A stretch of DNA of 33,592 bases, taken from positions 1 to 33,592 of the forward strand of contig CAIUOG010000031.1 of assembly GCA_903900705.1 (NCBI GenBank), read 5' to 3'. The notes beneath the pieces are model-generated. The model was not told the origin of the DNA, ran no database searches, and worked only from the letters and a program-made list of their open reading frames with translations. The position numbers were made by a program, and so were the translations under genes. Positions within the stretch are counted from its first letter, which is position 1. Every line of letters starts with the position of its first letter. Source of the DNA: an uncultured Acidobacteriia bacterium. GTDB taxonomy: Bacteria; Acidobacteriota; Terriglobia; Bryobacterales; Bryobacteraceae. This document shows, piece after piece, positions 1 to 28,169 of this stretch.

Positions 1-277
1 CATGCCGTGCAGCCAGGGCAGCAGGGGCAGGGACCACAATCCCTTCGCGTTCACGTCCTGGTTTGCGGGCGGCGGTTTCAAGGGCGGCAGCAGCTACGGG
101 CAGAGCGACGAATGGTCGTACAAGGTGGTGGAGAAGCCTGCCTATTGCTATGACGTGCACGCCACGGTGCTCCATTTACTGGGGATTGACCACAAGCGCC
201 TGACCTTCCGGCATAACGGTATTGATCGCCGCCTGACGGATGTTTATGGCGAGGTGATCCGGGAGATCATCGCGTAG
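1..277 (+). CDS. DUF1501 family protein, C-terminal fragment (5' end outside window)
   Basis: The reading frame is open to the window edge and ends at TAG 275-277. The visible ~91 residues match the C-terminus of DUF1501 proteins, the alkaline-phosphatase/sulfatase-like family abundant in Planctomycetes and Acidobacteria. Landmarks are [17 protein letters not shown] followed by [12 protein letters not shown], then [19 protein letters not shown] and [13 protein letters not shown]. In the family this region carries late core strands and the closing helix. The Met at position 2 is only an internal codon, because the family is about 450 residues long. The gene converges on the TPR/deiodinase-like gene and overlaps it by 11 bp at the 3' ends. 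DUF1501 genes usually follow a DUF1549/DUF1553 cytochrome gene, which would lie upstream of the window. Family assignment is confident; the biochemical role of the family is poorly defined. Confidence 0.88.
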
Positions 278-1775
278 TCAGGGCGGTGCGCAGCGCGGCT
301 TCGAGGGCTTTCCTGTCGAAATCCTGTTCAGTGAGCCCACTCGAATACAGCACGCGGCCGGACTTCGAAATTACATATACGCGGCTGGGCCAGGCACTGT
401 ACGCTTCCTCGGCCTTGTTGTCCAGGCCATCCACCACGGCGGGGAAACTGAGGTGCAGTTTCCGCTGACACAACATGGCGTAGTCCGTCTTTTGCGCGGC
501 GGTGGTGGCGGGCGTGAGCTCGATGTGTTCGCGTTCATTGCGGGTGCTCTGCCATTGATCGGTGGCGTGGGCCTCCCGGATGTAGACCTGCAGAAACGGG
601 AGCCTGCCCGCGTAGGATTTCGCCAGTTCATTCAGTACCGGCGCCGCGCCGCGGAAGTTCGGGCAACTGTAGCTGCCGAAGACCAGGACGGCGGGTTTAC
701 CGGCCTCGGGATTGGGGATTTCCGAGGCGGTTCCGTCAGCGTGGGAGAGTCGAAAATGCGAAGCCAATTCGCCGGGTTTGAGGCCGGCGGTCTGTAGGTC
801 GGGTTTGGCGGCGTACTGATCGGCCAGGGCCTTCTGCGCGGCTGCGGCGGTGGATCTGCCGGTCTTCGTGTAGGCGTCCGCGAGGAGCCCGTGGGCGGCT
901 CCGAACTGTGGGTATTCCTTGACCAGAGTTTCCAGCAGCGTCTCGGCGTCCTTCGTCCGGCCGATGGCGATCAGAGCCTGCGCTTTCGCGAAGCGTGCCT
1001 CGGCGGCCTGGGGGCGCAGGGCGATGGCGCGATCGAGCAGCGGGAGCGCGTCGGCATGCCTGCCGCGCCGCGCCAGAATCGCGCTGGATTGGTAGTTGGC
1101 ATCGTAGTCATTGGGGTCGGCGGCGAACTGCTTCCGGAAGGCCGCGAGAGCACGGTCGGGATCGCCGGTAAACAGCAGCGCCTGGCCGTAGGCCGACTGG
1201 ATATGCGGCAGCGCCGGATTGATGGCGATGGCGCGTTGAAAGGCTTTGACGGCGGAGGGGAAATCGCCGGTTGCGAAGGCCGAGACGCCGAGCGCGTAGC
1301 TGCCCTCGGCGGAGTTCGAGTCCTGGAAGAGCGGATCGAGAACGCGGATGGCTTTGGCGGGCTCGCCCGTCTGCAGGTAGCAATCGGCGAGCAGCAGGGC
1401 GAGGTCGCGGTCACCAGGCAGTTCGGCGAAAAGGCCGTCGAAGATCGGCGTGGCCTCGGCGAAGTGTCCGGACTTGTACCAGGCAAGGCCCAGGTTGCGC
1501 CGCAGGGGCTGCCGGAACTGCGCGGGTGCGGCTTTCAGGGCGGCTTCGTATTCCGGAATCGCCTCCGCGTAGCGGCCCAGTCCCGCGAGCGCCGCGCCCA
1601 GATTCGAGCGTGCGGCGATGCTGGATGAATCCACTATGAGCGCCTGCCGGTAGAGTTGAACGGCGCCCGCCAGATTGCCCTGGCGCTGCTGGTCCACCGC
1701 CTGGCGGTAGAGCGTGGCAGTGTCCTGCGCCAACCCGGCGACGGTCAATACCAGCAATGCGAGCGGACGCCTCAT
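267..1775 (-). CDS. Secreted TPR protein with C-terminal iodothyronine-deiodinase-like thioredoxin-fold domain
   Basis: The 502-residue protein starts with a short signal peptide ([17 protein letters not shown]). Residues about 20-325 are a run of TPR units (for example [26 protein letters not shown]). Residues about 335-498 form a thioredoxin-like domain whose landmarks are those of iodothyronine deiodinases: [10 protein letters not shown] at 366-375, where deiodinases have FGSCTU-P-F with selenocysteine; [11 protein letters not shown] at 398-408, matching the YIEEAH-SD-W block with its conserved His; and [15 protein letters not shown] followed by WPSRVYVI. Cys371 sits at the Sec position. 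ATG 1775 overlaps the stop of the preceding CRTAC1 gene as ATGA, so translation is probably coupled. The substrate is unknown; iodothyronine is unlikely in a soil bacterium, and a peroxidase, reductase or dehalogenase role are alternatives. Last gene of the six-gene set. Confidence 0.85.
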
Positions 1776-3460
1776 GCTTCCCTTACCGTCATGTAGCGGT
1801 CAAGCGGCGGATTTTCGATGCGCTGCACTTTGCCGCTCGGCTGCGGCCAGGTGATTTCCACCCAGTCGAGCTTTTCCGCCTTGCCGATCCCCAGCACTTC
1901 GCGCGGATCATGCGAGGAAAGATAGCTGCCGCCCGAATTCTTCATCCGCGACCGTACCACGCCACCGGCTGACCAGCGGATTTTTGCGCCGATGCCGTCC
2001 CGATTGCACTTCATGCCTTCCAGCTTCAGTCCCAGCCAGTGATTGCCAACGCCCGCGCGGTTTTTCAGCAGGACCGGCGGGCCGCCGTTAGTGCCGATCA
2101 GGATGTCGATCAGGCCGTCGTTATTGAAGTCGCCCGCCGCCAGGCCGCGCGCCGGATATGACTTGGTGAAGGCCGGGCCAGCCTCGGCGCTGACGTCCCG
2201 CAGCTTGCCGTTTTCCTGATGGAAGAGAAGCACAGGCTCCTTGTATTTCACCTGCGCCGAGTAGTCTTCAATCATGTCGTCCGGGTGGCCGTTGGCGAGG
2301 ATCAGGTCCACCGCGCCATCGTTATCGTAGTCGAAAAACTTCAGCCCCCAGCCGCTCAGCAGACGGGTGGATTGCGCCACGTTGTTGGCATGGGCGGCAT
2401 CGCGGAAGGTCTCGTTCTTCATGTTGCGGTAGAGCGAGAACATCTCCTGGTCCACGTTGGCGACGAAGAGATCCTGATAGCCGGAGTTGAAGACATCGGC
2501 CGCGTCCACGCCCATGCCGGAGCGCGCGCGGCCACCGTCGCTGTAGCCCACTTCGGCGGCCAGCGCCATCTCTTCCATTTGCAGCTTGCCGTTCTTATCT
2601 TTGCCGCGATTGACGAAGAGAAAGTTCTGCACGGTGTCATTCGCGACAAACAGGTCCATGCGTCCGTCGTTATTGATGTCGGTGGCCACCACGCCCAGGC
2701 CCTTACCCATAGCCTTATCGATGTCGGTGCCTTTGATCTGCGTGAAAGTGCCGTCGCCGTTGTTGTGATAGAGGAAGCTGGCGGTGCCGCGAAAGGCGCG
2801 GGGAATACAGTAATAGTGCCGCCCGAGTTTGTTGTCGCCGCAACTCAGATGCTCCGTTTTACCGTAGTCGACAAAGCTGCAGACAAAGAGGTCGAGCCTG
2901 CCATCGTTATCGTAATCAAACCAGACGGCGCTGGTGGTCCAGCCGGAGGACTGCAGGCCCGCCTTCTTTGTGACATCGGTAAATGTGCCGTCGCGATTGT
3001 TCTTATAGAGAATGCAATCGCCATAAGAGGTGACAAAGATATCGGGCCAGCCATCGTTGTCGTAATCGCCCACGGCCACACCCATGCCGAAGGTGCCGCC
3101 CGCGACTCCCGCCTTCTCCGTCACATCAGTAAATGTGCCGTCCCGGTTGTTCTTATACAGCGCGTTGCGTGGTGGCTTAGCCGGCTTATAGAAATCACAG
3201 GGGCCGCTGTTGACCAGATAGATATCCATCCAGCCGTCGTTGTCATAGTCGAGAAAAGCGCAGCCGGGGCCGAGCGTTTCAGGAAGAAACCGTTCGGGCG
3301 ACATGGCGTTGTCATGGGCCCAGTGAATGCCACTGACTGACGGTGGCACTTCTTCGAATAAGGCCGGTTTTTCAGCAGCGCTGGTAAGCCGCGACAGCCC
3401 CGCGCCCGCCGCCATCGCCATGATCTGACGTCGCGAGATTTTCATTGAAGAGTGACTCAT
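1772..3460 (-). CDS. CRTAC1 family protein with FG-GAP/VCBS repeats and ASPIC/UnbV domain
   Basis: The 562-residue exported protein has a twin-arginine-like N-terminus ([15 protein letters not shown]), suggesting Tat export. Seven repeats of an FG-GAP/VCBS propeller follow, with Ca-binding DxDxDG loops: [62 protein letters not shown], a degenerate [33 protein letters not shown] and [17 protein letters not shown]. The C-terminal ~90 residues are an ASPIC/UnbV domain ([44 protein letters not shown]). The family is secreted, calcium-binding and of unclear function. ATG 3460 overlaps the upstream TPR stop by 4 nt; a second in-frame ATG at 3445 (MKISRRQ) is an alternative start that would place the RR motif nearer the N-terminus. 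It sits between two TPR genes, a common neighbourhood for this family. Confidence 0.9.
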
Positions 3461-4581
3461 TTCACGTGTACACCCGGTTGTTTTTCCTGCGCTTCGGCAT
3501 TCAGCTTTGCGATGATGGCGCGCTCACGGTCCCCATCATCCTTGCGACGCAGCCGGTAATAAACGGTTGCCAGAGTGACATGGGCTTCCGTAAAGTTGGG
3601 AGCTTCCTTTAGCATCTTTTCGAGTTCCGCGCGGGCTTCCTCCACCTGGCCCAGACCGAAGGCAATGGAAGCCAGTTGATAGCGAACGCCAATGTCTCCA
3701 GGGCGGATGGAAAGCGATTTTTTCAGATACTTTTGCGCCTCGTCAAAATTCTCGTCGTTCTTCGCCAGCACGCCCAGCTGCAGGTTGGATTCAAAGTCGT
3801 TCGGGTTGCTTTCGAGCTCTTTCTGAAAGGCCTCGGCCGCACCTTTCTGGTCGCCGGTGCGCAGCAGTGAAATGCCGTAGTAAGCGTAGACATCCGGCAG
3901 CGATGGATTAATCTTCACGGCTTTGGTCAGGTCTTCCAGAGCGCCGGGGAAGTCGGCCGTGTTCAGCTTGATCATGCCCATCAGCAGGCGCGCTTCGGCG
4001 GACTCGCCATCGTGCAGGATGCGCTCAATGAGGGTTTGCCCGCGCTCCACCTGGTTATCGCGGATGAGCGCCGTCGCCAGAGAGTAGAGCACTGCCAGGT
4101 TCTGCGGTTTGCCGCCGGAGAACGGGGTAAGCAGCCCGACCACTTCCTTGTTCTTGCCGAGGTCGAGCCAGCAATTGGCCAGCAGGAGCGCGGGTTGCAA
4201 CTGATCGGGCGCGGCCTTGTGGACCTTCTCCAGAACCGGCGCCGCCTGGTCCGCGCGGCCGGTCTTGTACCAGGCCAGCGCGAGGTTGAGTTCCACGGGA
4301 GTATTGCCGGGCTGCATTTTCAGCGCCTGCTGATACTGCCGGATGGCGTCTTCGAACCGGCCCTGACGCGCGTAGGCCGCGCCCAGATTCGAGAGTGCCA
4401 GCGGTGAAGCCGGCCGGACCTTCAAATACTGTTCATAGCCCTGAATGGCCCCGCCGATGTCGCCCGCCTGGTGTCGTCCAATCGCCTGTTTCAGGATTTC
4501 TTCATTGGCATCGGACTGCGCGGCGCAGGCAATCAGTGCGCCTGCCACCAGCAGCAAAGCAGATCTGGAAAGCTGCCACAC
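3457..4581 (-). CDS. TPR protein, probable lipoprotein
   Basis: The 374-residue protein consists almost entirely of TPR units ([76 protein letters not shown]). The N-terminus has a hydrophobic segment ending in LIAC (residues 16-19), which fits a lipobox, so the protein may be lipidated at Cys19. The start is GTG at 4581, five bases after the VWFA gene stop, and the stop overlaps the next ATG, so it lies in the middle of the operon. The role is probably scaffold or protein-binding on the periplasmic side; no catalytic motif is visible. It resembles the TPR part of the last gene of the set and may be a paralogue of it. Confidence 0.85.
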
Positions 4582-4586
4582 TTCGG

Positions 4587-6701
4587 TTACTTTGCCTCGA
4601 TTCGCACGGTTGTCTTCGAATCCGCGGCACTCGCGCCCTGTTTGGCATGAGCCACCACTTCGTAGAGGCCGGGCGGGATGGAGGAGGCGGGAATCGTCAT
4701 CACATAGGGAATCTTACCCTGTGCGTCCGCCGCCGGCAGGGGCAACGGCACCTTCGTCAGGCTCTTGCCATCAAGCATGAATTCAATCTCCACCGCGGGG
4801 GCGGTTTTGATTGCCGGATCCTGATAGACGGTAAAGAACAGGCGCAGCGCCGACCCTTCCGCGCGGCTCACGCTGCTGTTCAGCGTGGGTGTGATGGAGC
4901 CGCCCTGATACTGAAACGGCTCTTCGGGGTCGAGCCCTTTTACGTTAGGCGTGTAAGACCGGATGGACGTCAGCGATGAGATCGCGACTCCACCGCGGTG
5001 CTGGGGTACCGTGAACTCCGCGCGCTGCACGCCGAGCCGATCACCTTCCACGTCCTTGACGACGCTCTCCAGCGTGTATTTGCCGGGGCTCAGCTCGAAC
5101 TGCGCCTTATCGACGAAATTCGCGGCTTTGAGCTGTTCCGGAGTGACCTGGAGCGCGCGGTCGCGCGTCATCTTCTGAACGACCTCGCCTTTGTCGTTTT
5201 TAACCAGCGCGCCGAGCGAGAAATGAATTCCGACATTCGGCTTCCCCGCTTCGGCTTTGGACTTCAGTTCATGCAGCGGCAGTTCCAGCATGAGGGAGAC
5301 GCGTGTGGTTTCGGCTTTCGGTTGCAGCAGGACGGCTCCGGCATGGAAGTTCACATCGGTGCTCAGCTTCCCGTCGGAGATCGCGCGCAGCAGCGGGAGC
5401 TCAAAGGTTTCGAGACCCGCGGCGCGGGCTTCGGGCGGCAGCGCGAAGTAGCCATTGCGGGCCTGAATGACGAGATCTTTGCGGCTGGTTGCCACGCTCA
5501 GCTTCCGGAACGAGCCATCATAGGTCTGGATACCCGGGTTGAAGGTCAGTTCGTAATAGCTCGCGATGTCCTCATTGATTTTCCGGATCGGACCGCGCAG
5601 ATCATTGCTGTCGGAAACGAGGAAGCCGCCGGTGGAATCGGCGAGTTCCGCGAGCTTCATACGGTCATTCATCCGACCGGAGTTTTCCGCGGTATCGCCC
5701 GCCAGAATATCTTCTTTCGTGGAACCGCCGGATACGCGCTGGGTGTCGGCCGCCGTCGCGGCGGCAGCCGAACGGAGGGCGCTGGTTGCGCCGCCATTGC
5801 CCGAGCCGCCGGAAACGCCCCGCGTGTCGATGGCATAGAAAGTCATGTTCGAACGGTTGGCTGTGCCGATGAGATTTCGCAGAATCTGATCGAGTTCAGA
5901 GGGAACCACCATGCCGGCCGTGAAGTACAGAATCGATTTTCTGCCGGCGATCGGCTGCAGGCCGAGCACCAGCGACTTCAGAACATTGAGCGAGAGCCGC
6001 GTTCCCACCGCCTGCGCGCCAGCATCGAGGCGCATCATGTCGAGCAGGACCTTCGCCAGCAGGATGTCCGTGTTGGGCGCTCCCTGGCCGCCCGCCTGGC
6101 CGGCAGCGTCGAACGCCGCCACCATCGCATTGGTGTCCTGATTGGAGCCTCCGCCATTGACGCCGAAGTGGCGGCTCATTTCCTGCACCAGGGAGTCGGA
6201 TTCGGAGATCAGTTTCGAATTCTGAGTGCCGGCGGTGGCCTTTTCGATGGCCGTCTGCAGCAGCGCCTTATCGCGGGTAAACTGCTGCAGAATGAGCAGG
6301 CGCGTGTTCGCCATCACGACCGAGTAGAAGACGTTGGTACCCTGTTCTCCCTTAATGAGATCGAGCGCGGCGGTGCGGGCCAGCTTGCGCTGCGAGGCGT
6401 CTCCCAGGGATTCGAAGGCCAGAGTGACGAGGCGCAACTGGTGCAACGGATCGAGTTTGGCGGACGCGCCGGAATCGGTGAGCGCCTCCGAGCCACGAAT
6501 CAGGCGGAAACCGAGTATTGATTGTTTGGCGCCGTTGTCAGAGACGGTAATGTCATCCTTCTTCAGGTCCGTAATGGGCTTGCCCTTCTTGTCGCGGGCG
6601 ATCAGATCAAGCACCACTTCATCGGAAGTTGCTTTGATGGTCTGCGCCGGCGATGGGAGTGCCAGAAAGAGAGCGGCGAGGATGATGGTGAAACGCTGCA
6701 T
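4587..6701 (-). CDS. VWFA-related acidobacterial domain protein (TIGR03436-like), secreted
   Basis: About 704 residues from ATG 6701, beginning with a clear signal peptide (MQRFTIILAALFLALPSPAQ). An N-terminal segment VVLDLIARDKKGKPITDLKKDDITVSDNG leads into a von Willebrand A-like domain at roughly residues 85-370, as in the VWFA-related proteins expanded in Acidobacteria. The usual DxSxS metal site is not intact: the equivalent first strand reads LVTLAFESLGDASQ. The later SILYFTAGMVVPSELD and FYAIDTRGVSGG match the family. The C-terminal ~300 residues are beta-rich without a recognised motif. The frame stays open upstream to 6839, but that extension overlaps the preceding TPR gene and lacks a signal peptide, so 6701 with its Shine-Dalgarno is preferred. 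Probably a periplasmic or surface protein-protein interaction module. Confidence 0.87.
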   Translation of the reverse strand: MQRFTIILAALFLALPSPAQTIKATSDEVVLDLIARDKKGKPITDLKKDDITVSDNGAKQSILGFRLIRGSEALTDSGASAKLDPLHQLRLVTLAFESLGDASQRKLARTAALDLIKGEQGTNVFYSVVMANTRLLILQQFTRDKALLQTAIEKATAGTQNSKLISESDSLVQEMSRHFGVNGGGSNQDTNAMVAAFDAAGQAGGQGAPNTDILLAKVLLDMMRLDAGAQAVGTRLSLNVLKSLVLGLQPIAGRKSILYFTAGMVVPSELDQILRNLIGTANRSNMTFYAIDTRGVSGGSGNGGATSALRSAAAATAADTQRVSGGSTKEDILAGDTAENSGRMNDRMKLAELADSTGGFLVSDSNDLRGPIRKINEDIASYYELTFNPGIQTYDGSFRKLSVATSRKDLVIQARNGYFALPPEARAAGLETFELPLLRAISDGKLSTDVNFHAGAVLLQPKAETTRVSLMLELPLHELKSKAEAGKPNVGIHFSLGALVKNDKGEVVQKMTRDRALQVTPEQLKAANFVDKAQFELSPGKYTLESVVKDVEGDRLGVQRAEFTVPQHRGGVAISSLTSIRSYTPNVKGLDPEEPFQYQGGSITPTLNSSVSRAEGSALRLFFTVYQDPAIKTAPAVEIEFMLDGKSLTKVPLPLPAADAQGKIPYVMTIPASSIPPGLYEVVAHAKQGASAADSKTTVRIEAK

Positions 6702-6707
6702 GGGGTG

Positions 6708-6713
6708 TCCTTT
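6708..6713 (-). promoter_or_regulatory. Shine-Dalgarno AAAGGA deciding the VWFA start
   Basis: On the minus strand AAAGGA lies 6 nt before ATG 6701. It supports that start over the longer open frame reaching 6839, and it fits between the stop of the upstream TPR gene (6718-6720) and the new start. Confidence 0.7.
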
Positions 6714-6717
6714 ACGG

Positions 6718-7827
6718 TCAGGGATGAGAGGCATCCACAATCTTTCGAAGTTTCCGGAATTCTTCCTGTTCGCGCTGCGCATCTTCTTTTCTGCCCAGCC
6801 GCGAGTATGCCGAGGCCAGGCTGTAGTGAGCGTCGGCACTTTCCGGTGCTAATTTTGTAGCCAGCCGGAGTTGATCCGCCGCGCGGGCGTCATCGCCGGT
6901 TTCGAGCAAGGCGCGACCGAGAGAGATGTGCGTGGCGAAGTCGCCGGGGTCCGCGGCGACGGCTTTTTCCGCGTATTCCTGTGCGGTGGCGGCCTCACCG
7001 TTTTTGAGGTAAATGGTGGATAAGCCGACCAGCGCCGGAATGTGTTTCGCGTCGAGCTCCAGTACTTTTTTCAATTCGGCAATGCCTTTTTCGGGCTGCT
7101 GCTGCATGAGGAATGCGCCGTAACGGAAGTGGAGGTCGGCCTGTCTGGGGAAGTCGTTCACCAGGGCCGCAAACTTTTCGGTAGCGGCCTTGGGATCCAT
7201 TTCCATGGCGCTGCCCATGGCATCGCCGAGGCGAGAGACCATCTCGCGGTCGCCCTCGGGAACTTCGCCGGGCAGCCAGGCTTTGCGCAGCCCGGCGATG
7301 CCTGCGGCGACGGAAATCTCCGGCGAACGCTTATCGATGCGGGTCAGTTCGGTGAGCGTGACGATGGCCTTTTCGAACGTTCCCGCTTTGGTGAGGCAGA
7401 GCGCGAAATGCAGACGGGCCGCGCGCGACAGTTCGGGGGGGCCATCGAAATGCAGCAGTTCGGAGCGGGCGAAGCTCTTGAGCGCGGCGCGGTAATCATG
7501 CGCGCCGTACTGGCAGAGGCCTTCCATGATCCAGCCGGGCGAGAGGTCCTGTTTGAGCGCCGTCAGCTTTGCGAAGGCGAGGGAGCAATCGGCGTACTGA
7601 TCGAGGTCATAGTGGAGGGAGCCCAGATTCCACCAGCCTTCGTCCCACGAAGGGCGCTGTTTTAGTGCCCGTTGGTAGAGAGCCACGGCCCCATCCAGTT
7701 TGCCGGCATCGCGCGCGGCCGCGGCCTGGCGCGCCAGGGTGTCGAAGGCGACCGCCGGCGCAGCGGTGGCCGGGGGCTTTGCGCTTTGTTGCGCGAGAAG
7801 GAGCAGAAATACCGGGAGAACCAGCAT
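6718..7827 (-). CDS. TPR protein, exported
   Basis: About 369 residues from ATG 7827. The N-terminus MLVLPVFLLLLAQQ is a short signal peptide or anchor, followed by a Pro/Ala linker and TPR units (AVALYQRALKQRPSWDEGWWNLG, ALKSFARSELLHFDGP, GIAELKKVLELDAKHIPAL, AQEYAEKAVAADPGDFATHISLG, AADQLRLATKLAPESADAHYSLA). The longer open frame to 8028 would overlap the cytochrome gene and hide the signal peptide, so it is rejected as the start. No strong Shine-Dalgarno is seen before 7827; the cytochrome stop is 26 nt upstream, so translation may depend on coupling. In related genomes such TPR segments can be fused directly to multiheme cytochromes, so this is probably a partner of the cytochrome encoded just upstream. 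Confidence 0.83.
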   Translation of the reverse strand: MLVLPVFLLLLAQQSAKPPATAAPAVAFDTLARQAAAARDAGKLDGAVALYQRALKQRPSWDEGWWNLGSLHYDLDQYADCSLAFAKLTALKQDLSPGWIMEGLCQYGAHDYRAALKSFARSELLHFDGPPELSRAARLHFALCLTKAGTFEKAIVTLTELTRIDKRSPEISVAAGIAGLRKAWLPGEVPEGDREMVSRLGDAMGSAMEMDPKAATEKFAALVNDFPRQADLHFRYGAFLMQQQPEKGIAELKKVLELDAKHIPALVGLSTIYLKNGEAATAQEYAEKAVAADPGDFATHISLGRALLETGDDARAADQLRLATKLAPESADAHYSLASAYSRLGRKEDAQREQEEFRKLRKIVDASHP

Positions 7828-7853
7828 ATTGAGTTGGGCCTGAACTATTGATC

Positions 7854-8933
7854 TTATTCCGGGTATTCGCCCTGAACCCGCACCACGCGAATCCAATGAT
7901 CGGGAAACGCATGATGGGCTTCCGGCGGCGAAACCTTCGGCATATGACAGGTCGTACAGTTCTCCTTCCCCACCGGGCAGAGCTTTTTGCCGGAGGTCAA
8001 TTCCGCCTTGTTGTGGCAGGCGGTGCATTTCGAATCGTAATAGCCGGCGTTCTTCACCAGCGGGGTGTGCGGATCATGGCAGGTGGTGCAGGCAATCCGG
8101 GGATCGTCCAGCGAAAAGCATTTGCTGTTGGTCAGCCGGTAGGAGGGGAACCGCGCCGTGTTGATGCCCTTGATGCCCATATTCATCACGGTGTCCCAGG
8201 TGCGGTGACAGACGCCGCAGAACTCGCTGGCTTCCTGTGGCCCCATGCCTTTTAAGGGCCGGATGGCGGTGGCTGCGCCTTTCGCTCCGGAAGCCATGGC
8301 TTCCACGTGTGACGCGCCGGCGCCGTGGCAGCTCTCGCACTGCACGCCGTTTTCGTAATGATCGAGCTGCAGGGATGGCCCCAGTCGCGCGCCGGTGGTG
8401 TGGCAGCCAAAGCAGTTGCGGGGTTCATTGCCATCCATGATGCGCCCGGCCGCCTCCAGCAGGTTGCGCGGTTTTGAGTTGCCTGCTCCCACGGTGAGGT
8501 CCAGTCCTTTGATATCGGCGTAATAGCTCACACGGCTCTCGTAGAACTTCCCCTCATGCCGGAACAGGTAAGTCTGGCCGGCCATGCCTTGTCCAAAGGC
8601 AAATTCAAGGGGTGCTTCGAAGTTTTCTTTTCCATCGGATACGCGGTAGAGAATTTTGTCTCCGTGGCGCACAATCGACCAGCTATAGTCTCCGCTCTGA
8701 AACGCGAAATGAATATCACCCCGCAGTGCCGCGCAATTCTCCACCGGGGAGAGCGCCCGGGACATAGTGCTTTCCCGATAGGGCTTCGCCTGTTTGTCGT
8801 GACACTGCGCGCAGCGATCAGACCCCACGTACTTCCCGTTCGCGCTCCAGTAGGCCGAGCCCACCGGGGCGCCGGACTGCGCCAGCGCTTGGAGTGCAAA
8901 CAGGACAGCGAGCGGAATGAGGCGCATTTGCAT
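7854..8933 (-). CDS. Multiheme c-type cytochrome with seven CxxCH motifs
   Basis: The 359-residue protein has a signal peptide (MQMRLIPLAVLFALQALAQ) and seven CxxCH heme-attachment motifs: CAQCH at 41, CFGCH at 174, CESCH at 199, CGVCH at 239, CTTCH at 282, CTACH at 303 and CTTCH at 326. The first heme is separated from the other six by about 130 residues of beta-rich sequence, so the protein has an N-terminal monoheme part and a C-terminal hexaheme cluster. The layout resembles cytochrome c554/doubled-CxxCH families. It is expected to be periplasmic and to carry electrons; the acceptor is unknown. It is the first gene of the six-gene set, and its ATG lies only 13 nt past a strong terminator hairpin. 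A second start at 8927 (MRLIPL) is possible. No catalytic heme environment could be assigned from sequence alone. Confidence 0.9.
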   Translation of the reverse strand: MQMRLIPLAVLFALQALAQSGAPVGSAYWSANGKYVGSDRCAQCHDKQAKPYRESTMSRALSPVENCAALRGDIHFAFQSGDYSWSIVRHGDKILYRVSDGKENFEAPLEFAFGQGMAGQTYLFRHEGKFYESRVSYYADIKGLDLTVGAGNSKPRNLLEAAGRIMDGNEPRNCFGCHTTGARLGPSLQLDHYENGVQCESCHGAGASHVEAMASGAKGAATAIRPLKGMGPQEASEFCGVCHRTWDTVMNMGIKGINTARFPSYRLTNSKCFSLDDPRIACTTCHDPHTPLVKNAGYYDSKCTACHNKAELTSGKKLCPVGKENCTTCHMPKVSPPEAHHAFPDHWIRVVRVQGEYPE

Positions 8934-9011: not shown

Positions 9012-12000
9012 TTAGAAGTAGAACTTGATCGCCAACTGTACGACTCTGTGACCCTGCTTCTCCGTGGTGGTACCGAACAAGGGCGTATTGACCTTGCCGG
9101 TGGTGCCGTCGAAGCCGAGATTCAGGTTGCCGCCGTTAAACGAATACAGCGGGTGATTGAGGAAGTTGTACCCGTTGAGACGGATCTGGATCTTCCTCTG
9201 TTCGCCAAGCTGGAAGTTCTTGAAGAGCCCCAGATCGGCGTTGAAGAAGGCCGGGCCGTAGATTGCGGGCAGCACACTGGGTCCGTTCTGTCCGACCTTG
9301 GTCGGAATGGCGAAACAGTTCGGGTTGATGTACTGATTCGCCGCCAGGCCGGACGAGGGGTTACAGGTCAGAATCGGGTTCAGCTGAATGTTCGTGGTAC
9401 CCAGAATCGAGGCGTTGCTGACGTTATACGTCGTCCCCGGAATGGTGTAACCGTTCAGATTCAGGCCGAAGTTCTGGCCCTGGAGGCCGGAGAGGTTCGG
9501 GCCGCTTTCCCACTGCAGAATGCCGGAAAGCTGCCAGCCATTGGCCGCATAGCCGAGAGCCTTGTTGCGCACCGGGTTCCCCAGCTCAGCCGAGTAGGCC
9601 ATGTTGAAGATGTGGGTGCGGTTGCTGGGCTGCACGCCGTAGTCGTTCCGCAGGTTGAACGAGTCGAGTGAAGGATTCACGATGCCCATCGACTTGCCGA
9701 ACGTGTAGTTCGCGTTGATGACATAGCGGCCCTTGGTGCGCAGATAGGTGACCTGCATGGCGTTGTAGTTGGAGTAGGTGCCGTTGGTGGCGAGACCGAG
9801 GTCGGAGAAGCCCTGCAGCGGACGGAAGTTGTTCGCCGTCAGACTGTTGGGGTCCACGCCGCCATTCTTCGACGACAGGAGCGACCCCACCGGAACCAGG
9901 TTGATGTTGCTGCCTGCACCGGAGGAGTAAGCAAGGTCGCGGCTGCGGTTGCCCACATAAGCGACTTCCATGAGGCCGGACCAGGGGACGCGCTGTGCCA
10001 CTGTGACGGAGTAGCTGTCCGTGTACGGCTGCTTGCTGTCCTTACTGTCGACCGCGGCGGGAGAAAGCGCCGCGCTTGCGAAGTTCAGCGAATCGAGTTG
10101 GCGAGCCAGCAGCGGTCCGCCGTTGAGACCCTGGTTGTTGCCGAGCGTGATGCTCTTCACCCCGGCAGCTACGTCCAGACCGCTGGTGAACTGCGCGGAG
10201 TGGTAGTAGAAGCGGCCCCAGCCGCCGCGGAGGACGGTGTTGCCGGTGCCGAAGACGTCGTATGCTCCACCCAGACGGGGCTGGTAGAAGGCCGACTTAC
10301 CGGGGAAGCCCGTCAGCGGGACGCTGGAATTGCGTTTGTTCCAGACGAAGCCGCAGTAATCGGTGGGCGCACAGGTGGACTTGTACTGGCTATAGTCGAA
10401 GATCGAATAGCCCGCGCCCGTTCTGTCGGTCCAGGGCGTAAAATGCGTGATGCGAATGCCGAGGTCGAGAGTCAGACGCTTGTTGACTTTCCAGGAATCC
10501 TGGACGAAGCCTTCCATCTGCCAGTAAGAGATGTCGTTGATGCGGTTGAACGACGTCTCGTTGTATTGGTCGAGGTTGCCCACCACCAGATCGGCGTATT
10601 CGTTGCCCAGAGTGTTCGAGTTGCCGCTCCAGACATTGAGGTTGCCGTTGGTATTGTTGTTGGCCGGCTGCGAGTTGCGGATCCATTCCCAGAAGATGCC
10701 GGCCTTCAGAGTGTGAGTTCCCCACACTTTGGAAACCGTATCGCTGAAGCTGGGCAGCCACTTATCGGCATAGAGACCCTGGCTTGCGCCGCCCGCTTCG
10801 AAGCCGCCCGGATTGAAGACGACCGAAGCTTCCTGGTTGGTCCAGCCGAGGCCGCCGAAGGACGGAATCTGTGAGACGCCATTCTTGTAGAGACCCTTAT
10901 AGTTGTAGCCAACGGTGGAGCGGCTCACTTTGCTCGGGTCCGCGAAGACGTTCGGGAAGCCGATGTAGGTGTAGCCGAAGACGAATTCGTTGGTGGTGGT
11001 GGGGCTGAAGACGTGGGTAACGGACGCCGTGATGGAGTCCGATTTGTTCTTGCCTTCGACCGGTGTGGGGTAGGGCACCTGATCGTTCTGACGCCACCAC
11101 AGGCCCACCGGGAACTGCTGGGTTTCGCGCTGCAGGTTGTAGCGGACGAACAGTTTAGTGCTGTCGCTGATGTTGTAGTCCATGCGGGACATCCACTGGA
11201 CGCTGTTCTGATTGAAGTTTTCCGCCTGCACGTAGTTGTAGCCGCCGTTGGAGTTCGGGTCGGCGTTGGGCTGCGGGTAGAGCTTCATCAGGGCCTGCAT
11301 GTTGGGATCGAGCACAGAGGTGGGAATGATCCCGCCCGGGTACTTGGCCATGTTGGCGGCGTTCAGCATGCCCGGAGGGCCACCGGATGCGGTGATGTTG
11401 CCTTCTTTCGCAACTTCAGCCGGTGAGAAGTTGCCGCCGATTTCGCCCGCGGTGGGAACCGTGGAACGAAGCAGGCCGGTATCGAGCACCTGATAGAAGT
11501 ACTCATAACCCGTGAAGAAGAATAACTTGTCGCGGTTGCGGTTGAACTTCGTGCCGGGGATCAGGACCGGACCACCCAGCGTGCCGCCCGGATAGTAATA
11601 CTTGTTCTGCGGAGCGCTCTGGCCGTTCTTGTTGAAGAGCCAGTCGTTCGCGTTCAGAGCATAGTTGCGGGCGTAGAAGAAGCCGGAGCCGTGGAAGTCT
11701 TTGCCGCCGGCCTTGGCCACCGAGCTGATTACCGCGGGACCCTTCTGGTTCTCAGCGCTGAAGTTGGAGGTCAGCACCTTGAATTCGGAAATCATGTCGG
11801 AGTTGGGGTTGACTGGCGTTGCACAGTTACAGCCCGGATCGGAAACGTGCGCGCCGTCCGCCGTGATGTCGAGCGAGTTGCCCGGCAGACCGTTGTAGGA
11901 GTACGCGTTATTGAGTGGGCTCTGGCTGCCGCCGTCGCCGTTGCCGTTGATGCCGATAGTTTCACCCGTGAAGCTCGCCTTGTTGGACGTGCCGTTCTGG

Positions 12001-12497
12001 ATGCCAAAACCGGGCATGATCTTGATGAATTCGGCGGCGTTGCTGCCCACGGTAATGAAGTTCTGCAGTTCCTTGGTGGAAAGGGTGGAGGATTTCTCGC
12101 CCGAGTCCACCGGAGCCAGCGCATCGACAGCCGTGGAGACTTCGACCGTTTCGGTGGTGTTGCCGACCTTGAGAGTGACGTTAATATTACGCTTCTCGCC
12201 GCCGCCCAGCACGATTCCCGGAACCTTGGAGGTATCGAAGCCCTTGGCCGTGATGGCTAGTTCATATGTGCCCGGAGGCACGGAGGCGAAGGTGAAGTAA
12301 CCTTCGTTATTCGTTGTTGAATCGCGAAGCGAGCCGGAACCGGTGTCCTTCAGCTTCACACTTGCATTGGCTACCAGCGCCTGCGATGGATCCGAAACCA
12401 CGCCGGTGAGCGTGGCGAATATCGACTGTGCCGGCAGTTGCGTGGCCAGTAATGCGGACAGAGCGGCTCCGGCGAGGAGCCTCGTCCATCTTGTCAT
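9012..12497 (-). CDS. Oar-like TonB-dependent receptor with carboxypeptidase-regulatory-like N-terminal domain
   Basis: The 1161-residue outer-membrane protein has a signal peptide (MTRWTRLLAGAALSALLATQLPAQ), then a carboxypeptidase-regulatory/CnaB-like beta sandwich at about 28-115 (LTGVVSDPSQALVANASVKL, YFTFASVPPGTYELAI). A plug-like region follows (residues about 130-260, with EFKVLTSNFSAENQKGPAVIS), then a long beta-barrel rich in aromatic strands. It ends in VVQLAIKFYF, a C-terminal Phe signature of outer-membrane barrels. Acidobacteria carry many paralogues of this type, usually thought to import oligosaccharides or bind peptides; the substrate cannot be read from sequence. The start is ATG 12497, preceded by an AAAGGGGAAG Shine-Dalgarno about 7 nt upstream. 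The gene ends before the terminator at 8947-8984. It is divergently paired with the malectin membrane regulator, which suggests a regulatory link. Confidence 0.93.
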   Translation of the reverse strand: MTRWTRLLAGAALSALLATQLPAQSIFATLTGVVSDPSQALVANASVKLKDTGSGSLRDSTTNNEGYFTFASVPPGTYELAITAKGFDTSKVPGIVLGGGEKRNINVTLKVGNTTETVEVSTAVDALAPVDSGEKSSTLSTKELQNFITVGSNAAEFIKIMPGFGIQNGTSNKASFTGETIGINGNGDGGSQSPLNNAYSYNGLPGNSLDITADGAHVSDPGCNCATPVNPNSDMISEFKVLTSNFSAENQKGPAVISSVAKAGGKDFHGSGFFYARNYALNANDWLFNKNGQSAPQNKYYYPGGTLGGPVLIPGTKFNRNRDKLFFFTGYEYFYQVLDTGLLRSTVPTAGEIGGNFSPAEVAKEGNITASGGPPGMLNAANMAKYPGGIIPTSVLDPNMQALMKLYPQPNADPNSNGGYNYVQAENFNQNSVQWMSRMDYNISDSTKLFVRYNLQRETQQFPVGLWWRQNDQVPYPTPVEGKNKSDSITASVTHVFSPTTTNEFVFGYTYIGFPNVFADPSKVSRSTVGYNYKGLYKNGVSQIPSFGGLGWTNQEASVVFNPGGFEAGGASQGLYADKWLPSFSDTVSKVWGTHTLKAGIFWEWIRNSQPANNNTNGNLNVWSGNSNTLGNEYADLVVGNLDQYNETSFNRINDISYWQMEGFVQDSWKVNKRLTLDLGIRITHFTPWTDRTGAGYSIFDYSQYKSTCAPTDYCGFVWNKRNSSVPLTGFPGKSAFYQPRLGGAYDVFGTGNTVLRGGWGRFYYHSAQFTSGLDVAAGVKSITLGNNQGLNGGPLLARQLDSLNFASAALSPAAVDSKDSKQPYTDSYSVTVAQRVPWSGLMEVAYVGNRSRDLAYSSGAGSNINLVPVGSLLSSKNGGVDPNSLTANNFRPLQGFSDLGLATNGTYSNYNAMQVTYLRTKGRYVINANYTFGKSMGIVNPSLDSFNLRNDYGVQPSNRTHIFNMAYSAELGNPVRNKALGYAANGWQLSGILQWESGPNLSGLQGQNFGLNLNGYTIPGTTYNVSNASILGTTNIQLNPILTCNPSSGLAANQYINPNCFAIPTKVGQNGPSVLPAIYGPAFFNADLGLFKNFQLGEQRKIQIRLNGYNFLNHPLYSFNGGNLNLGFDGTTGKVNTPLFGTTTEKQGHRVVQLAIKFYF

Positions 12498-13075
12498 ATA
12501 CAGTCTTCCCCTTTGAAAAGTAAATTCCCCTGGATATCCGGACCGATTGCTCTATCCGGATAAGCTCAGCGAAGAGCATTGAGGAATAGTATTAAACCAC
12601 TAGTCCGGGGGGAAGGTTAATGCTGTTAACGGGTGAAGGTCACTGTCTTAACATGAGGGAACTGCTTTCTTATGAATGGATTAGGCTGTCTGTGCAGTAT
12701 GCCGATCGCATTTTGGCCTGGCCGCGTGAGGCTTCGCTTGGCCCGGCGGGTGGTACTGCCGGTACCATGGTGGTCCGCGCCGTTGCGGTTTTCGGGTGCC
12801 CCACTCTCATTCGACCTCCGCCCACCGGATTGAATCGTTATAGAGCCTGAGTGGCTTGCCGGGGCCAAATGGATCGAGTCAGGCAGAACGCGTTAACCTC
12901 TTTATTGTTCCTTTTCGGGCGTCTGGTCAGCGCCGATAAAGTTTTTAGAATCAATGGGAAGTTTGGAACGTTAAGGTGATTTGTCTTGGGGTTAATTTTC
13001 CCGGCGGCGTTTCTTAACGTCCGATTTGCCCATGTTGTTATTCAAATGATACACTTCTAGCCGGTTGCCATCCCA
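12498..13075. other. Divergent intergenic region between TonB receptor and malectin regulator (578 bp)
   Basis: No convincing gene is present; short frames here lack a start signal and recognisable protein features. The region is richer in AT patches than its flanks and has TTAA at eight places between 12592 and 13017, several inside GTTAAC or CTTAAC. A pair of TATCCGGA repeats lies near the receptor start. It must carry the promoters for both flanking genes. A weak sigma70-like pair for the plus-strand gene is TTGCCC at 13026-13031 and GATACA at 13048-13053. Confidence 0.6.
12532..12562. repeat. Direct TATCCGGA repeats with overlapping palindromes upstream of the TonB receptor
   Basis: TATCCGGA occurs at 12535-12542 and 12553-12560, 18 bp apart. 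The first copy overlaps the palindrome GGATATCC (12532-12539) and the second lies in the palindrome TATCCGGATA (12553-12562). The spacing is not far from two helical turns. The location, 35-65 bp before the receptor start codon, would suit an operator, but no regulator is known. Confidence 0.4.
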
Positions 13076-14718
13076 GTGCAAACGATGCCACCGACAATAC
13101 TCTTTGAAAGAGAAAAGCAGGAACTCGAAGCAATCTGGTCGTCCGGGATTTTTTCCCGGGCAACCAATCAGGCGCTCCTGCTGAAGTATGTCTGCGCCAA
13201 ATACTTTGAGGGCGCGGCAGACGAAATCAAGGAATACAACATCGCGGTTGAGGCGCTGGGCAGGCCGGTCGAGTTCGACCAGAAGCGGGATGCCATCGTT
13301 CGGGTGGAAGCGCATGGTCTGCGGAAGCGGCTGCGGGAGTATTACGAAGGCGACGGCGCGGGGCACTCGGTTCACATTCTGATTCCATCGGGCCGCTACA
13401 CGCCCAGCTTTATATATAAGGATCAGGAAGCGGCTTTTCCGGGAGTTCCGGACGACGCCGCATCGGTGGCCAGCGCGGAATCGGGAAAGATCGGGCTGAG
13501 CGTGCTGCCTGCAGTTCCGGCTCCGGCTGTGGTGGAATCCGAGCCCGCTGCGGAATCCCTCAGTCTCGCCCTTCAGCCGGCGTCGACACAGTCGCCGGAT
13601 GTTCCGTCCGCCCCGTCCCGTCCCGTCCGGCTTTACGGATGGATGGGATTGTTGTTGCTTCTGGCCGGGTTGATCGCCGGCTACCTGGTGCTCCAGCGAA
13701 GGGGCTCAACGGAAAGTCCGGTCCAAACCGCCCCGCGTGTGGTTGCGCTGGATGATTCCGAGGATATCCGCATCATGGCGGGTACCGAACAGGGCGTCTA
13801 TGTCGACTCTTTCGGGCGGACGTGGCAAAGTGACCGGAACTATTCGGGCGGTTATGTGGCGGCCAACGCGAGGCCCCGGCCGATTCTGGGCACGCAGGAT
13901 TTCCGGCTATACCAAAACCGAAGAGAAGGCACTTTTCGTTATGATATTCCGTTAAAGCCGGGGCCGCACGAACTGCGTTTGTACTTTGCGGAAACAATGT
14001 TTGGCGAGAATAATCCCGCCGGCGGAGCGGAATCCACCCGGATTTTCGAGATTTCCATCAACGGCAGGAACGCTGTTTCGTCGTTCGACATCATCAGCGA
14101 CGCCGGACCGGGCGTCGCCGACGTGAAGGTGTTTAAGGACGTGACTGCGGCGGAGGATGGAAAGCTTCATCTGGAGTTTTCGCCCACCAACAACCCGGCC
14201 TTCATCAACGCCATCGAGATTCTGCCCGGGTTGCCTGGCAAGATGCGTCCGATCCGGCTCATCGCAAGGGAAAACGGAATCAAGGACAGCCAGGGCAGGT
14301 ACTGGGATCCTGACCGCTATGCGCGGAGCGGAAAGCCCGTGCCCCGACCGGATTCGAATGTCCCGAATGCCGACCCGGAACTGTTCCGCAGCGAGAGATT
14401 CGGGAATCTCAGCTATTCGATACCGGTGGTTCCGTCCGGTCGCTACACGGTAGTCCTCTATTTCTCGGAGAACTGGTTCGGACCGGGAATGCCTGGCGGT
14501 GGTGGGGCAGGCTCGCGGATTTTTGACATTCTGATTAATGGCGTTGCGGTCCGGCGCAAGTTCGATATCTTCCGGGAAGCGGGGGGGCCGGTCGGGCGGC
14601 GATTGTGTCCGTGAGCGGCGTGGAGCCGACTCACCAGGGCAAGATTGACATCTCAATGCCGCCGGCGGTCAATTATGCGTGCATCAATGCGGTGGAAATC
14701 CGGGACGAATCCCGATAG
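13076..14718 (+). CDS. Transmembrane one-component regulator candidate: DNA-binding-like N-terminus, TM helix, two malectin domains (frameshift at G7)
   Basis: Residues 1-115 match a winged-helix-like N-terminal domain common in Solibacter and some rhizobial cyclase/TPR proteins (LLLKYVCAKYFEG, EIKEYNIAVEALGRP, DAIVRVEAHGLRKRLREYYEG, IPSGRYTPSF). A Pro/Ala linker leads to one TM helix at about 184-205 (GWMGLLLLLAGLIAGYLVL). Two malectin-like carbohydrate-binding domains follow, about 222-388 (LRLYFAETMFG, RIFEISINGR, FINAIEILPG) and from 394. In frame 0 the second domain ends early at TGA 14612-14614 (512 aa). One base of back-slippage at GGGGGGG 14581-14587 restores it to TAG 14716-14718 with the expected ACINAVEI ending (547 aa). 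The start is GTG 13076 or ATG 13085; neither has a good Shine-Dalgarno. DNA binding is inferred. The gene is divergent from the TonB receptor. Confidence 0.8.
14581..14587 (+). other. G7 run at frameshift point (slippery-like G GGG GGG)
   Basis: In frame 0 the codons are GCG GGG GGG CCG, so the seven G form an X XXY YYZ heptamer. A minus-one slip reads GCC next and continues through a complete malectin C-terminus. An eighth G in the genome would give the same result. Loss of one G, a sequencing error, transcriptional slippage or programmed frameshifting all fit. Confidence 0.75.
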
Positions 14719-14748: not shown

Positions 14749-17136
14749 TCAGTTTGCCAACGCCGCCTGAACCGCGCACAGCAGCGCATCCGGGGAGAAC
14801 GGTTTGGTGAGGCAGTCGGTGCGGACATCGATGCCGCCCTGCGGGGTCAGTGCGTCGTTCGCGAATCCCGACATATAAAGGAGTTTCATGGTCGGTCTTT
14901 CCCCGATCAGTTTCTCGGCCAGTTCGCAGCCACTCATTCCCGGCATAACAACGTCCGTCAGCAGCAGATCCAGTTTGCCAGAGTGGACTTTGGCGATTTC
15001 GAGCGCCTCCTCGCCCGAGGCGGCGAGCAGGACGGAATAGCCCCGGGATTGGAGAACCTCCGCACAGTACTGACGAACCACGTCCTGGTCTTCCGTGACA
15101 AGAATGGAGGCGGAGCCGGGATCTCCGGACGGTTTTACGAGTTCGGCTGAAGCCAACTCCGGTTTAAGGTCAACGGCGGGGAAGTAAATCCGGAACTCAG
15201 TCCCCGCGCCCGGTTTGCTCCGGACATCAATATGGCCTCCCGCCTGGTGAACGATGCCGTGAACCATGGCAAGCCCCAGGCCGGTACCATGGCCAATCTC
15301 CTTGGTCGTAAAAAAGGGCTCGAAGATCTTTTCGAGAACATCGGGGTTCATGCCTTGGCCGGTGTCGGCGACGGAGAGCAGAATGCAGGGACTGGGAATG
15401 CCCGCGGGCGCTTCAGCCAGATTCGACGTGCGAATCGTCAGGTCTCCAACGCCGGACATGGCGTCCCGGGCGTTGGAGGCGAGGTTCAGGAGCATCTGTT
15501 TCAACTGCCCGGCATCGGCGAGTATGGGCCGCAGGGAAGGTTCCAGCACGGTCGTGAGTGTGACGTTATCGCCAATCAGGCGCTGCATAATGCGGGAGAT
15601 ATCCTCAATTACAGCGTTGAGTAGCACACTTCCGGGGGCAACGATCTGCTTCCTGCTGAAGGTGAGCAGTTGATTGGTAATTTCGGCGGCCTGTTCGCCT
15701 GCCTTTGCCACTTGAACGACATGTTCGCGTGACGGGTGGCCTTCGAGATCGGCAAGAATCAGGGAACTGTAGCCGTTAATGACGGTGAGCAGGTTGTTGA
15801 AATCGTGTGCGACGCCACCGGCGAGCCGGCCGAGAGTCTCCATCTGCCGGGCGCTGCGGAGTCTGTCTTCCAGTTCAAGTTGCTTTTCCTCGGCACGGCG
15901 CCGTTCAGTCTGGTCGCGGAGAATTCCCATGGCGCCTGAGACCCGGCCATTCCCATCGAGCGCGGGAATCAGCCTGTATTCCACGAACATGCCGGAGGGA
16001 AGCCGGAGTTCCCCGATTGCCATCTCGCCGGTACCGATTACCCGCTTCACGCTATCGAGATGCTCCGGCGTGGAAAGAAGGCCGGACAGGGCAACATCGG
16101 TTTGACGCCATCCGCCATCGCGAAGCGGCGCCGTGGGAGCCCCGGTGCGATCCACGCTGTAGAGCGTGTCGGGCAGCAATCCCACCAGTCCCTTGTAGTA
16201 GGCCTCGCTTTGCCGCACGGCGGATTCCGCAGCCACGAGCCTGCGCTGTTGTCGGCGCGAGCGGAACAGGCTGACGCTGAGGATCAAAATGAGAACGGCA
16301 GCCGCGGCAACGGCCGACAGCATCCGCTCTTCCCTGCGCTCCGTGTTCAGATTGTCGATGGACTCCATGCTCAGGCCGGGGAAATAGCCCCATTGGTCCG
16401 AGAGACGGGCGAGGCTGCCGTCGCGGGTCATCACCTTGATCTCTTCGCGAATCTCGTCGGCGACGGGGCCGACCGGAAAGGTCGAAGCCACGCCGAGGCT
16501 GATGCGGGGAAGCGGAACGGAAATCGGACGCATTTCGCGCGGGCCGCCTTCAAACAGCAGGGCGGCGGCGTTGAACTGTTCGATAAACACGGCATCCGCC
16601 TTACCGTCGATCACGGAATGCCAGGCGTTCCGATAGGTGGTAGCCGTAACGGTCGTCGGGTCGGGTGCGACCCGCCGCAGAAGTGTCTTGTAAATCTCCA
16701 CGTTGGGAAGGCTGATGCGGGCGTGCGTGAGATCGGTCCAGGTTCTGTAGGGGCTGTCGGAGAGGACGAAAAAGCTGTATTCGGTGATCAGGAAGGGGTC
16801 GGTGATGTGGATGATCCGGCGGTGCTCGGGCGTGTCCACCATGCTGACCCAGAGGTCGGCCTCGCCGTTGATGAGGGCGGGAATGCCGGGAGTATTGGAG
16901 TGGACCCAGTTGAGCCGGATCCCTTTGCGCCGGGCGGCTTCCTTTACAATGCCCGCCGCAAGGCCGGAAGGTTTGTCCTGCTGATCCTGGTTCTTAAGAG
17001 GCTCAATGCGCCCAAAGCCCATCCGATAGGTGCGGGATCTGTCAATGGACGGATGGAGGCGCACCCAGACTATCAGGCAGGAGAGCAGGAGGGTGACTGC
17101 GAGAAGAAAGCCTTTCAGGAATCCAGATGACTTCAA
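14749..17136 (-). CDS. Hybrid sensor histidine kinase with periplasmic solute-binding (SBP family 3-like) sensor and C-terminal receiver
   Basis: About 795 residues from TTG 17136. Order: TM helix ([17 protein letters not shown]); periplasmic SBP-3-like domain ([52 protein letters not shown]); second TM ([20 protein letters not shown]); PAS region; HisKA with the phospho-His in [17 protein letters not shown]; HATPase with N-box [12 protein letters not shown] and G-boxes VADTGQGM and [10 protein letters not shown]; receiver domain with the phospho-Asp in [10 protein letters not shown]. No output domain follows the receiver, so a separate response regulator or phosphorelay partner is needed; none is in the window. 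The frame is open to a GTG at 17271, but that would overlap the ATG of the divergent S41 gene, so a start inside is preferred. It converges on the malectin gene with a 30-bp gap. Confidence 0.88.
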
Positions 17137-17234
17137 GTAGTTGTACCACCATCCTCTACGGAGAGATATACGGGAAACGACAATTCTAACACTTGATTGG
17201 ACTTGCGGTGGCTCCGCGACTGCCTCGATCTGTC

Positions 17235-17255
17235 TATAATTTAAGGACCCAGGAG
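17235..17255 (+). promoter_or_regulatory. -10 box TATAAT and Shine-Dalgarno AGGAG for the S41 peptidase gene
   Basis: A perfect TATAAT is at 17235-17240, and AGGAG at 17251-17255 lies 8 nt before ATG 17264. No good -35 hexamer is found at the usual distance (17212-17217 reads CTCCGC). Because transcription would start near 17247, the leader would be very short. Confidence 0.55.
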
Positions 17256-17263
17256 CAATCCAA

Positions 17264-28162: not shown

Positions 28163-28169
28163 AGGAATC

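Follow-up and report, generated by a model that had tools for sequence, protein, structure and literature searches.

A putative malectin-bearing transmembrane regulator with candidate operator arrays beside an outer-membrane barrel operon in Acidobacteriota

The window analyzed here is a stretch of 33,592 nucleotides (CAIUOG010000031.1, contig 31 of the 6.1 Mb draft assembly GCA_903900705.1) from an uncultured bacterium of the family Bryobacteraceae in the phylum Acidobacteriota. It was found that a gene starting at position 13076 encodes a winged-helix-like N-terminal domain (hereafter N-domain), one hydrophobic helix, and two malectin domains, and that this gene is divergent from a gene for an outer-membrane barrel across a shared region with arrays of CGTTAAC-like sites at both ends. 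The product is probably a kinase-free transmembrane one-component regulator that acts both on the promoter of its own gene and on the barrel/cytochrome operon. The features concerned are as follows.

13076..14614 (+), regulator gene in the present assembly, 512 amino acids, GTG start, in-frame ATG at 13085
13103..13414 (+), N-terminal winged-helix-like domain (family alignment A1), from sequence and predicted fold
13625..13681 (+), single transmembrane helix, residues 184-202 by hydropathy (helix 191-209 in the model of the relative L038)
13772..14182 (+), malectin domain 1, malectin aromatic positions kept only in part
14264..14587 (+), in-frame part of malectin domain 2, aromatic positions conserved among relatives
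14581..14587 (+), run of seven G, frame break relative to relatives
14590..14718 (+), rest of malectin domain 2 (42 residues), read in the other frame
12498..13075, shared divergent promoter region, 578 bp
12615..12653, operator-like array on the barrel side (GGTTAAT at 12615, GTTAACG at 12625, CTTAACA at 12647)
12891..12897 (+), single CGTTAAC site
12969..13019, operator-like array on the regulator side (CGTTAAG at 12969, GGTTAAT at 12990, CTTAACG at 13013; cores 21-22 bp apart)
9012..12497 (-), outer-membrane barrel gene with CarboxypepD_reg and OMP_b-brl_4 (PF25183), proposed target

PF11721 Malectin matches the protein twice (E 1.8e-36 and 126 bits for the whole protein, with a cut-off of 23 bits; 65 and 60.9 bits per domain), and no malectin match beyond these two domains was found in the genome. 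One hydrophobic segment, residues 184-202, lies between the DNA-binding-like and the sensor domains. Both features had been read from the letters alone in an initial annotation of this DNA and were confirmed, as was the divergence from the barrel gene across 578 bp. The same annotation had called the divergent gene a TonB receptor. Its beta-barrel domain is clear (PF25183, 477.7 bits), and no plug family was found among the Pfam matches up to E 1; a diverged plug may be present. The import of oligosaccharides, which that annotation ascribed to such receptors, is conjectural for this protein.

Is this layout a chance reading? It is not, because 50 distinct genes were found that carry the N-domain and malectin in one frame. 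In a full-length-alignment search, matches at E<=1e-40 occur in 63 of 150 genomes of the bacterial family and matches at E<=1e-30 in 10 of 297 genomes of the phylum; some of these matches are partial or comprise the N-domain alone, and the window's own genome is counted in both samples. I analyzed the neighborhoods of the 50 fusions, which were taken by best score rather than drawn at random and contain some close pairs (L052/L053, for example). Outer-membrane protein (OMP) genes, N-domains, and malectin domains were called by hidden Markov models built here, and genes were taken as open frames only. An OMP gene of the PF25183 type is divergent from the fusion in 29 cases and an OMP gene lies directly downstream of it in three, while 18 fusions have neither arrangement. 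By this count, the link of the fusions with the OMP gene is conserved. An OMP gene or a relative of an operon gene (TPR, VWFA-type, ASPIC, or cytochrome) lies within the fetched stretch in 13 of these 18, a weak figure because genomes of this kind commonly contain TPR and ASPIC genes. The other five (L041, L048, L220, L237, and L241, with a 5′ flank under 300 bp in L237 and L241) have none in the fetched stretch. Chance adjacency of regulator and OMP gene was considered and rejected. As an estimate, 1-2% of genes would adjoin an OMP gene by chance, because the 6.1 Mb genome has about 65 PF25183 places.

The recurrent motif of the shared regions adds to the case for a regulator. The 28 divergent promoter regions analyzed are those of 60-700 bp in length, 8.7 kb together. 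On both strands, they contain 42 matches to CGTTAAC, found in 14 of the 28 regions, versus 2.0 expected from dinucleotide shuffles. The palindrome CGTTAACG scores twice in this both-strand count; the palindrome GTTAAC, scored once, occurs at 36 places in 17 of the 28 regions versus 3.1 expected. CGTTAAC is rare in the rest of the same loci (19 matches in 373,626 bp) and in their other intergenic DNA (one in 19,080 bp). Thinning to a single region for each group of related proteins, done at four thresholds, gave densities of 4.3, 3.9, 3.0, and 2.7 matches per kb; at the strictest threshold, 10 matches remain in three of 11 regions, which slightly reduces the confidence in the regulator reading. 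Only 10 of 378 region pairs align by blastn at E<=1e-3, and therefore the motif has for the most part persisted while the sequence around it diverged. The core-to-core distances are mainly 21-25 and 31-37 bp, with 9 bp (three pairs) and 15 bp (one pair) also seen; compared with random placement, there are 10 pairs at 20-24 bp versus 2.1 and 11 pairs at 30-35 bp versus 2.4. In the 6.1 Mb genome, the pattern GTTAA-N16-20-GTTAA occurs at three places, two of which are the arrays at either end of the shared region, whereas the third is located within open reading frames. Genome-wide, the reversed control pattern is present at six places, and therefore it is the location, not the number, of the paired array that is telling. 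The CGTTAAC arrays are thus a candidate operator and a putative site of the regulator. Since arrays lie at both ends of the 578-bp region, the promoters of the regulator gene and of the OMP operon are probably both under the control of this protein. A promoter scan of this region gave one sigma-70-like match where 0.5 is expected and was not used.

Could the arrays belong to another regulator, with the malectin protein acting elsewhere or off DNA? I consider this improbable, although several observations lean that way and weigh against assigning the arrays to the malectin protein. The exact motif is missing from half of the 28 regions, and the binding of the regulator to the arrays is a prediction from sequence. 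In addition, the association of the motif with the recognition helix is not independent of descent. Among the fusions with enough upstream sequence (two of the 50 were left out because theirs was short), CGTTAAC lies upstream in 22 of 29 with A at the helix residue, 2 of 11 with V, I, or M, and 2 of 8 with others. The naive Fisher p for A versus V/I/M is 0.0025, and CGTTAC is commoner where the helix has V, I, or M in place of A. Covariation is not claimed, as the tree gives two independent pairs on starred branches and five on all branches. On the other hand, CGTTAAC is absent from the 16 promoter regions (5,046 bp) analyzed of N-domain genes lacking malectin, which contain one GTTAAC, and it is rare elsewhere in the loci of the fusions. 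The motif also precedes the regulator in other synteny, with spaced sites ahead of a non-divergent regulator in L048 and L210-L214. Exact sites lie 144-312 bp ahead of a separate OMP gene in L214, and one lies 24 bp ahead in L245. Finally, the paired array is intergenic only at the present locus in its own genome. The assignment of the arrays to the malectin protein is therefore kept as the preferred one. No GTTAA or TTAAC was found in the 700 bp upstream of the regulator in L041, L215, L219, L220, and L224.

In the same 16 promoter regions without malectin, CGTAAC (11 versus 1.8) and CGTTAC (10 versus 1.9) are mildly enriched and are perhaps a related site. Exact CGTTAAC sites also occur elsewhere in several loci. 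L048 has sites near -1896 and -1860 from the start of the regulator open reading frame, and L241 has sites at +1694 to +1765; these off-promoter sites of L048 and L241 are possible further targets.

The N-domain was examined by family searches and structure prediction. The window protein has no PF00486 Trans_reg_C match (membership cut-off 26.2 bits), and the N-domain of a paralogue reaches 24.1 bits, below that cut-off. PF00486 gives a weak match in 8 of 37 members of the N-domain family, even at E 0.1. In the structure comparison of the predicted fold, a check proposed by the initial annotation, the DNA-binding domains of OmpR/PhoB rank first. Thus, the N-domain is most likely a divergent winged helix of the OmpR/PhoB type under the Pfam cut-off, as had been suspected from its sequence. 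A non-DNA-binding domain was rejected, as both the predicted fold and the PF00486 signals speak against it. Given this fold and the conserved link with OMP genes, neither result that the initial annotation had named as speaking against a regulator (a non-DNA-binding N-terminal fold, or homologues without a conserved link to TonB receptor genes) was found. The TetR protein 2nx4 was the lone match of the N-domain profile to the sequences of solved structures, at the chance level of E 1.3. No relative was confirmed when viral contigs were scanned three times with single N-domains. The full-length model of L038 was poor (mean pLDDT, the predicted local distance difference test, 58.5) and was not used for the structure search.

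The N-domain belongs to a large, unnamed family of Acidobacteriota in which the partner domains vary. The genome of the window has seven N-domain genes, and at least one is present in 11 of 99 genomes of the phylum sample (the own genome included), with a maximum of 19 per genome. The 81 distinct N-domain genes comprise a malectin set of 11 and 70 others; one hydrophobic segment was found in 55 members, none in 20, and two in six. Ten of the 70 were left out of the neighborhood count for short flanks. Of the remaining 60 (one of which, L168, is a malectin fusion fetched again as L245), 20 are divergent from an OMP gene, 11 are directly upstream of one, and 29 are neither within 1.5 kb. In the window's own genome, a PF25183 domain is found no more than 3 kb away for three of seven N-domains but for one of 14 Trans_reg_C domains. 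The 31 OMP-linked members include PD40 propellers in three and TPR families in up to three, and in most of the rest the C-terminal part, about 230-310 residues long, matches no Pfam family (for example L046, L047, L060, L126, L127, and L151). The alignment suggests that this part is shared, and it is probably a second, larger sensor class. The 39 other members have TPR families in 16, PD40 in five, FlgO in five, and Malectin in one.

The initial annotation had placed the end of the regulator gene at 14718. It was revealed that the frame from 13076 ends at a stop at 14614 and that 14718 belongs to another frame. The run of seven G sits within malectin domain 2, and the 42-residue tail past it (14590-14718) resembles the tail of L038, with a G+C content at third codon positions (GC3) of 0.74. 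The closest relatives have a frame without an internal stop, and the frame is unbroken in most relatives. The break is best read as a one-base frameshift in the window copy, either real or an assembly error; the copy may be impaired near its C-terminus, or a base may be absent from the assembly. It is unlikely that the window copy is a frameshifted pseudogene that no longer senses. The break leaves the end of domain 2 out of frame, and eight rows of relatives listed from the larger family search also have an in-frame stop. Nevertheless, the out-of-frame tail still resembles the relatives and keeps its GC3, the break lies at a homopolymer in a draft assembly, and the operator arrays are present.

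Which signal would the malectin domains read? Passages of PMC7783096 give Y67, Y89, Y116, F117, and D186 as ligand residues of Xenopus malectin. I placed Y89, Y116, and F117 by my own numbering, anchored on the adjacent YF pair and a 27-residue distance; Y67 was not placed and D186 not clearly. In domain 2, an aromatic residue is found at these three positions in 49, 48, and 48 of 50 relatives, respectively, beside invariant W, R, G, and Y residues. In domain 1, the Y89 position falls in a gap followed by R in 50 of 50, the Y116 position is mostly aliphatic, and the F117 position is F or Y in 40 of 50. Because the aromatic ligand positions are kept in domain 2 and partly lost in domain 1, domain 2 is more likely to bind sugar if either domain does; it is also the domain hit by the frameshift in the window copy. 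The domains resemble animal endoplasmic reticulum malectin (PDB 2jwp, 2k46) in domain family and in the three aromatic positions of domain 2, but the sequence identity is low. A saccharide or glycan signal is therefore plausible. It is also conceivable, though I lean against it, that with the same DNA-binding role and target the malectin domains read peptidoglycan, the envelope state, or a protein partner such as the periplasmic TPR protein or the cytochrome of the operon, rather than a free glycan. By domain-family matches, no carbohydrate enzyme was recognized among the neighboring operon genes, domain 1 lacks part of the ligand positions, and ChiS is reached via a chitin-binding protein (passages of PMC11856585). 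These points are countered by the aromatic residues of domain 2, kept in 48-49 of 50 relatives beside the invariant residues, and a saccharide remains the preferred signal.

Downstream of the barrel gene, the proposed target operon continues on the reverse strand.

7854..8933 (-), multihaem c-type cytochrome, following the barrel gene in the proposed target operon
6718..8028 (-), TPR protein
4587..6839 (-), acidobacterial VWFA-type protein (TIGR03436)
3457..4581 (-), TPR protein
1772..3460 (-), FG-GAP / ASPIC-UnbV protein
267..1775 (-), TPR and deiodinase-like protein

This operon-like run (267-8933) is partly conserved in L038-L040. The order OMP, cytochrome c, TPR, VWFA, TPR is kept in L038 and L039, and L040 has the same order with the cytochrome not detected. 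With 65 of 97 candidates scored, the genome has at least 70 matches to PF25183, spread over about 65 places. On the other side, a hybrid histidine kinase with an SBP_bac_3 domain (14749-17271, -) is convergent with the regulator; near the other 49 fusions, no relative of this kinase was detected at E<=1e-20. Farther away, a PSCyt1/PSCyt2/PSD1 protein is followed by a DUF1501 protein (25826-29624, +), a pair typical of Planctomycetes.

The proposed mechanism is as follows. The cytoplasmic N-domain, a predicted OmpR/PhoB-type winged helix, would be joined by one helix across the inner membrane to two malectin domains that presumably face the periplasm. A ligand, most likely a saccharide held by domain 2, may alter the pairing or packing of the protein. 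The altered pairing of winged helices would change binding to the CGTTAAC-like arrays, whose sites are two or three DNA turns apart, and the changed occupancy would alter expression of the regulator gene and of the barrel/cytochrome c/TPR/VWFA/ASPIC operon with no kinase step. More broadly, I tentatively suggest, at somewhat less than an even chance, that Acidobacteriota run many PF25183 barrel operons with a modular kinase-free family in which a winged helix and one membrane helix are combined with an interchangeable reader in the periplasm: a malectin pair, a beta-propeller, TPR, or the Pfam-less part (about 230-310 residues). Each form would have an operator of its own, and the one with malectin would read a glycan via domain 2 and work at CGTTAAC arrays. 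If true, the family would be the phylum's counterpart of the HTCS (hybrid two-component system)/anti-sigma logic of Bacteroides. HTCS and SusR of Bacteroides and the clostridial RsgI anti-sigma factors, which have carbohydrate-binding domains, likewise couple outside glycan sensing to the expression of outer-membrane or extracellular carbohydrate machinery, but they do so through a histidine kinase or through an anti-sigma/sigma pair and do not combine malectin with a winged helix. The candidate operator makes binding, target, and signal each directly testable, and a mapped operator would serve as a reporter for ligand finding.

In the open-licence literature, nothing was found on malectin with a transcriptional regulator in Acidobacteria, on malectin with one-component or DNA-binding proteins in bacteria, on the diversity of ToxR-type membrane-bound one-component regulators with winged and sensory domains, or on Oar-like/TonB-dependent receptors with a transcriptional regulator in Acidobacteria; malectin with winged helix gave plant papers only. 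The word malectin occurs zero times in PMC3174227, the abstract of which describes Acidobacteriota as abundant soil bacteria, and no description of how PF25183 genes are selected for expression was found in the literature searched. As far as these searches go, three things are new, namely the winged-helix family, which has no name, the use of malectin as a sensor, and the candidate operator.

The principle is not new, contrary to the "new one-component design" of the initial annotation. According to passages of PMC10269533, transmembrane transcription regulators are widespread, and passages of PMC11856585 describe chitin-responsive regulators, ChiS and TfoS, that bind promoters from the membrane. 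The survey in PMC10269533 identified DNA-binding domains with Pfam models, as its passages state; such surveys would mostly miss the present family, because PF00486, even at E 0.1, picks up just 8 of 37 N-domains. The regulator has a ToxR/CadC-like layout: those proteins (PMC10269533; CadC, PMC5430869) have an N-terminal OmpR-type winged helix, here only predicted, one transmembrane helix, and a C-terminal periplasmic sensor, and they control transcription directly from the membrane, as is proposed here. Unlike them, the present regulator has a predicted winged helix that scores under the Pfam cut-off and comes from its own acidobacterial family, a malectin pair as the sensor, and a PF25183 barrel operon as the proposed target. 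ChiS and TfoS of Vibrio cholerae resemble the proposed regulator in being membrane-anchored, saccharide-responsive, and themselves promoter-binding; however, ChiS is directed at chitin targets, and the passages of PMC11856585 on ChiS and TfoS do not mention malectin.
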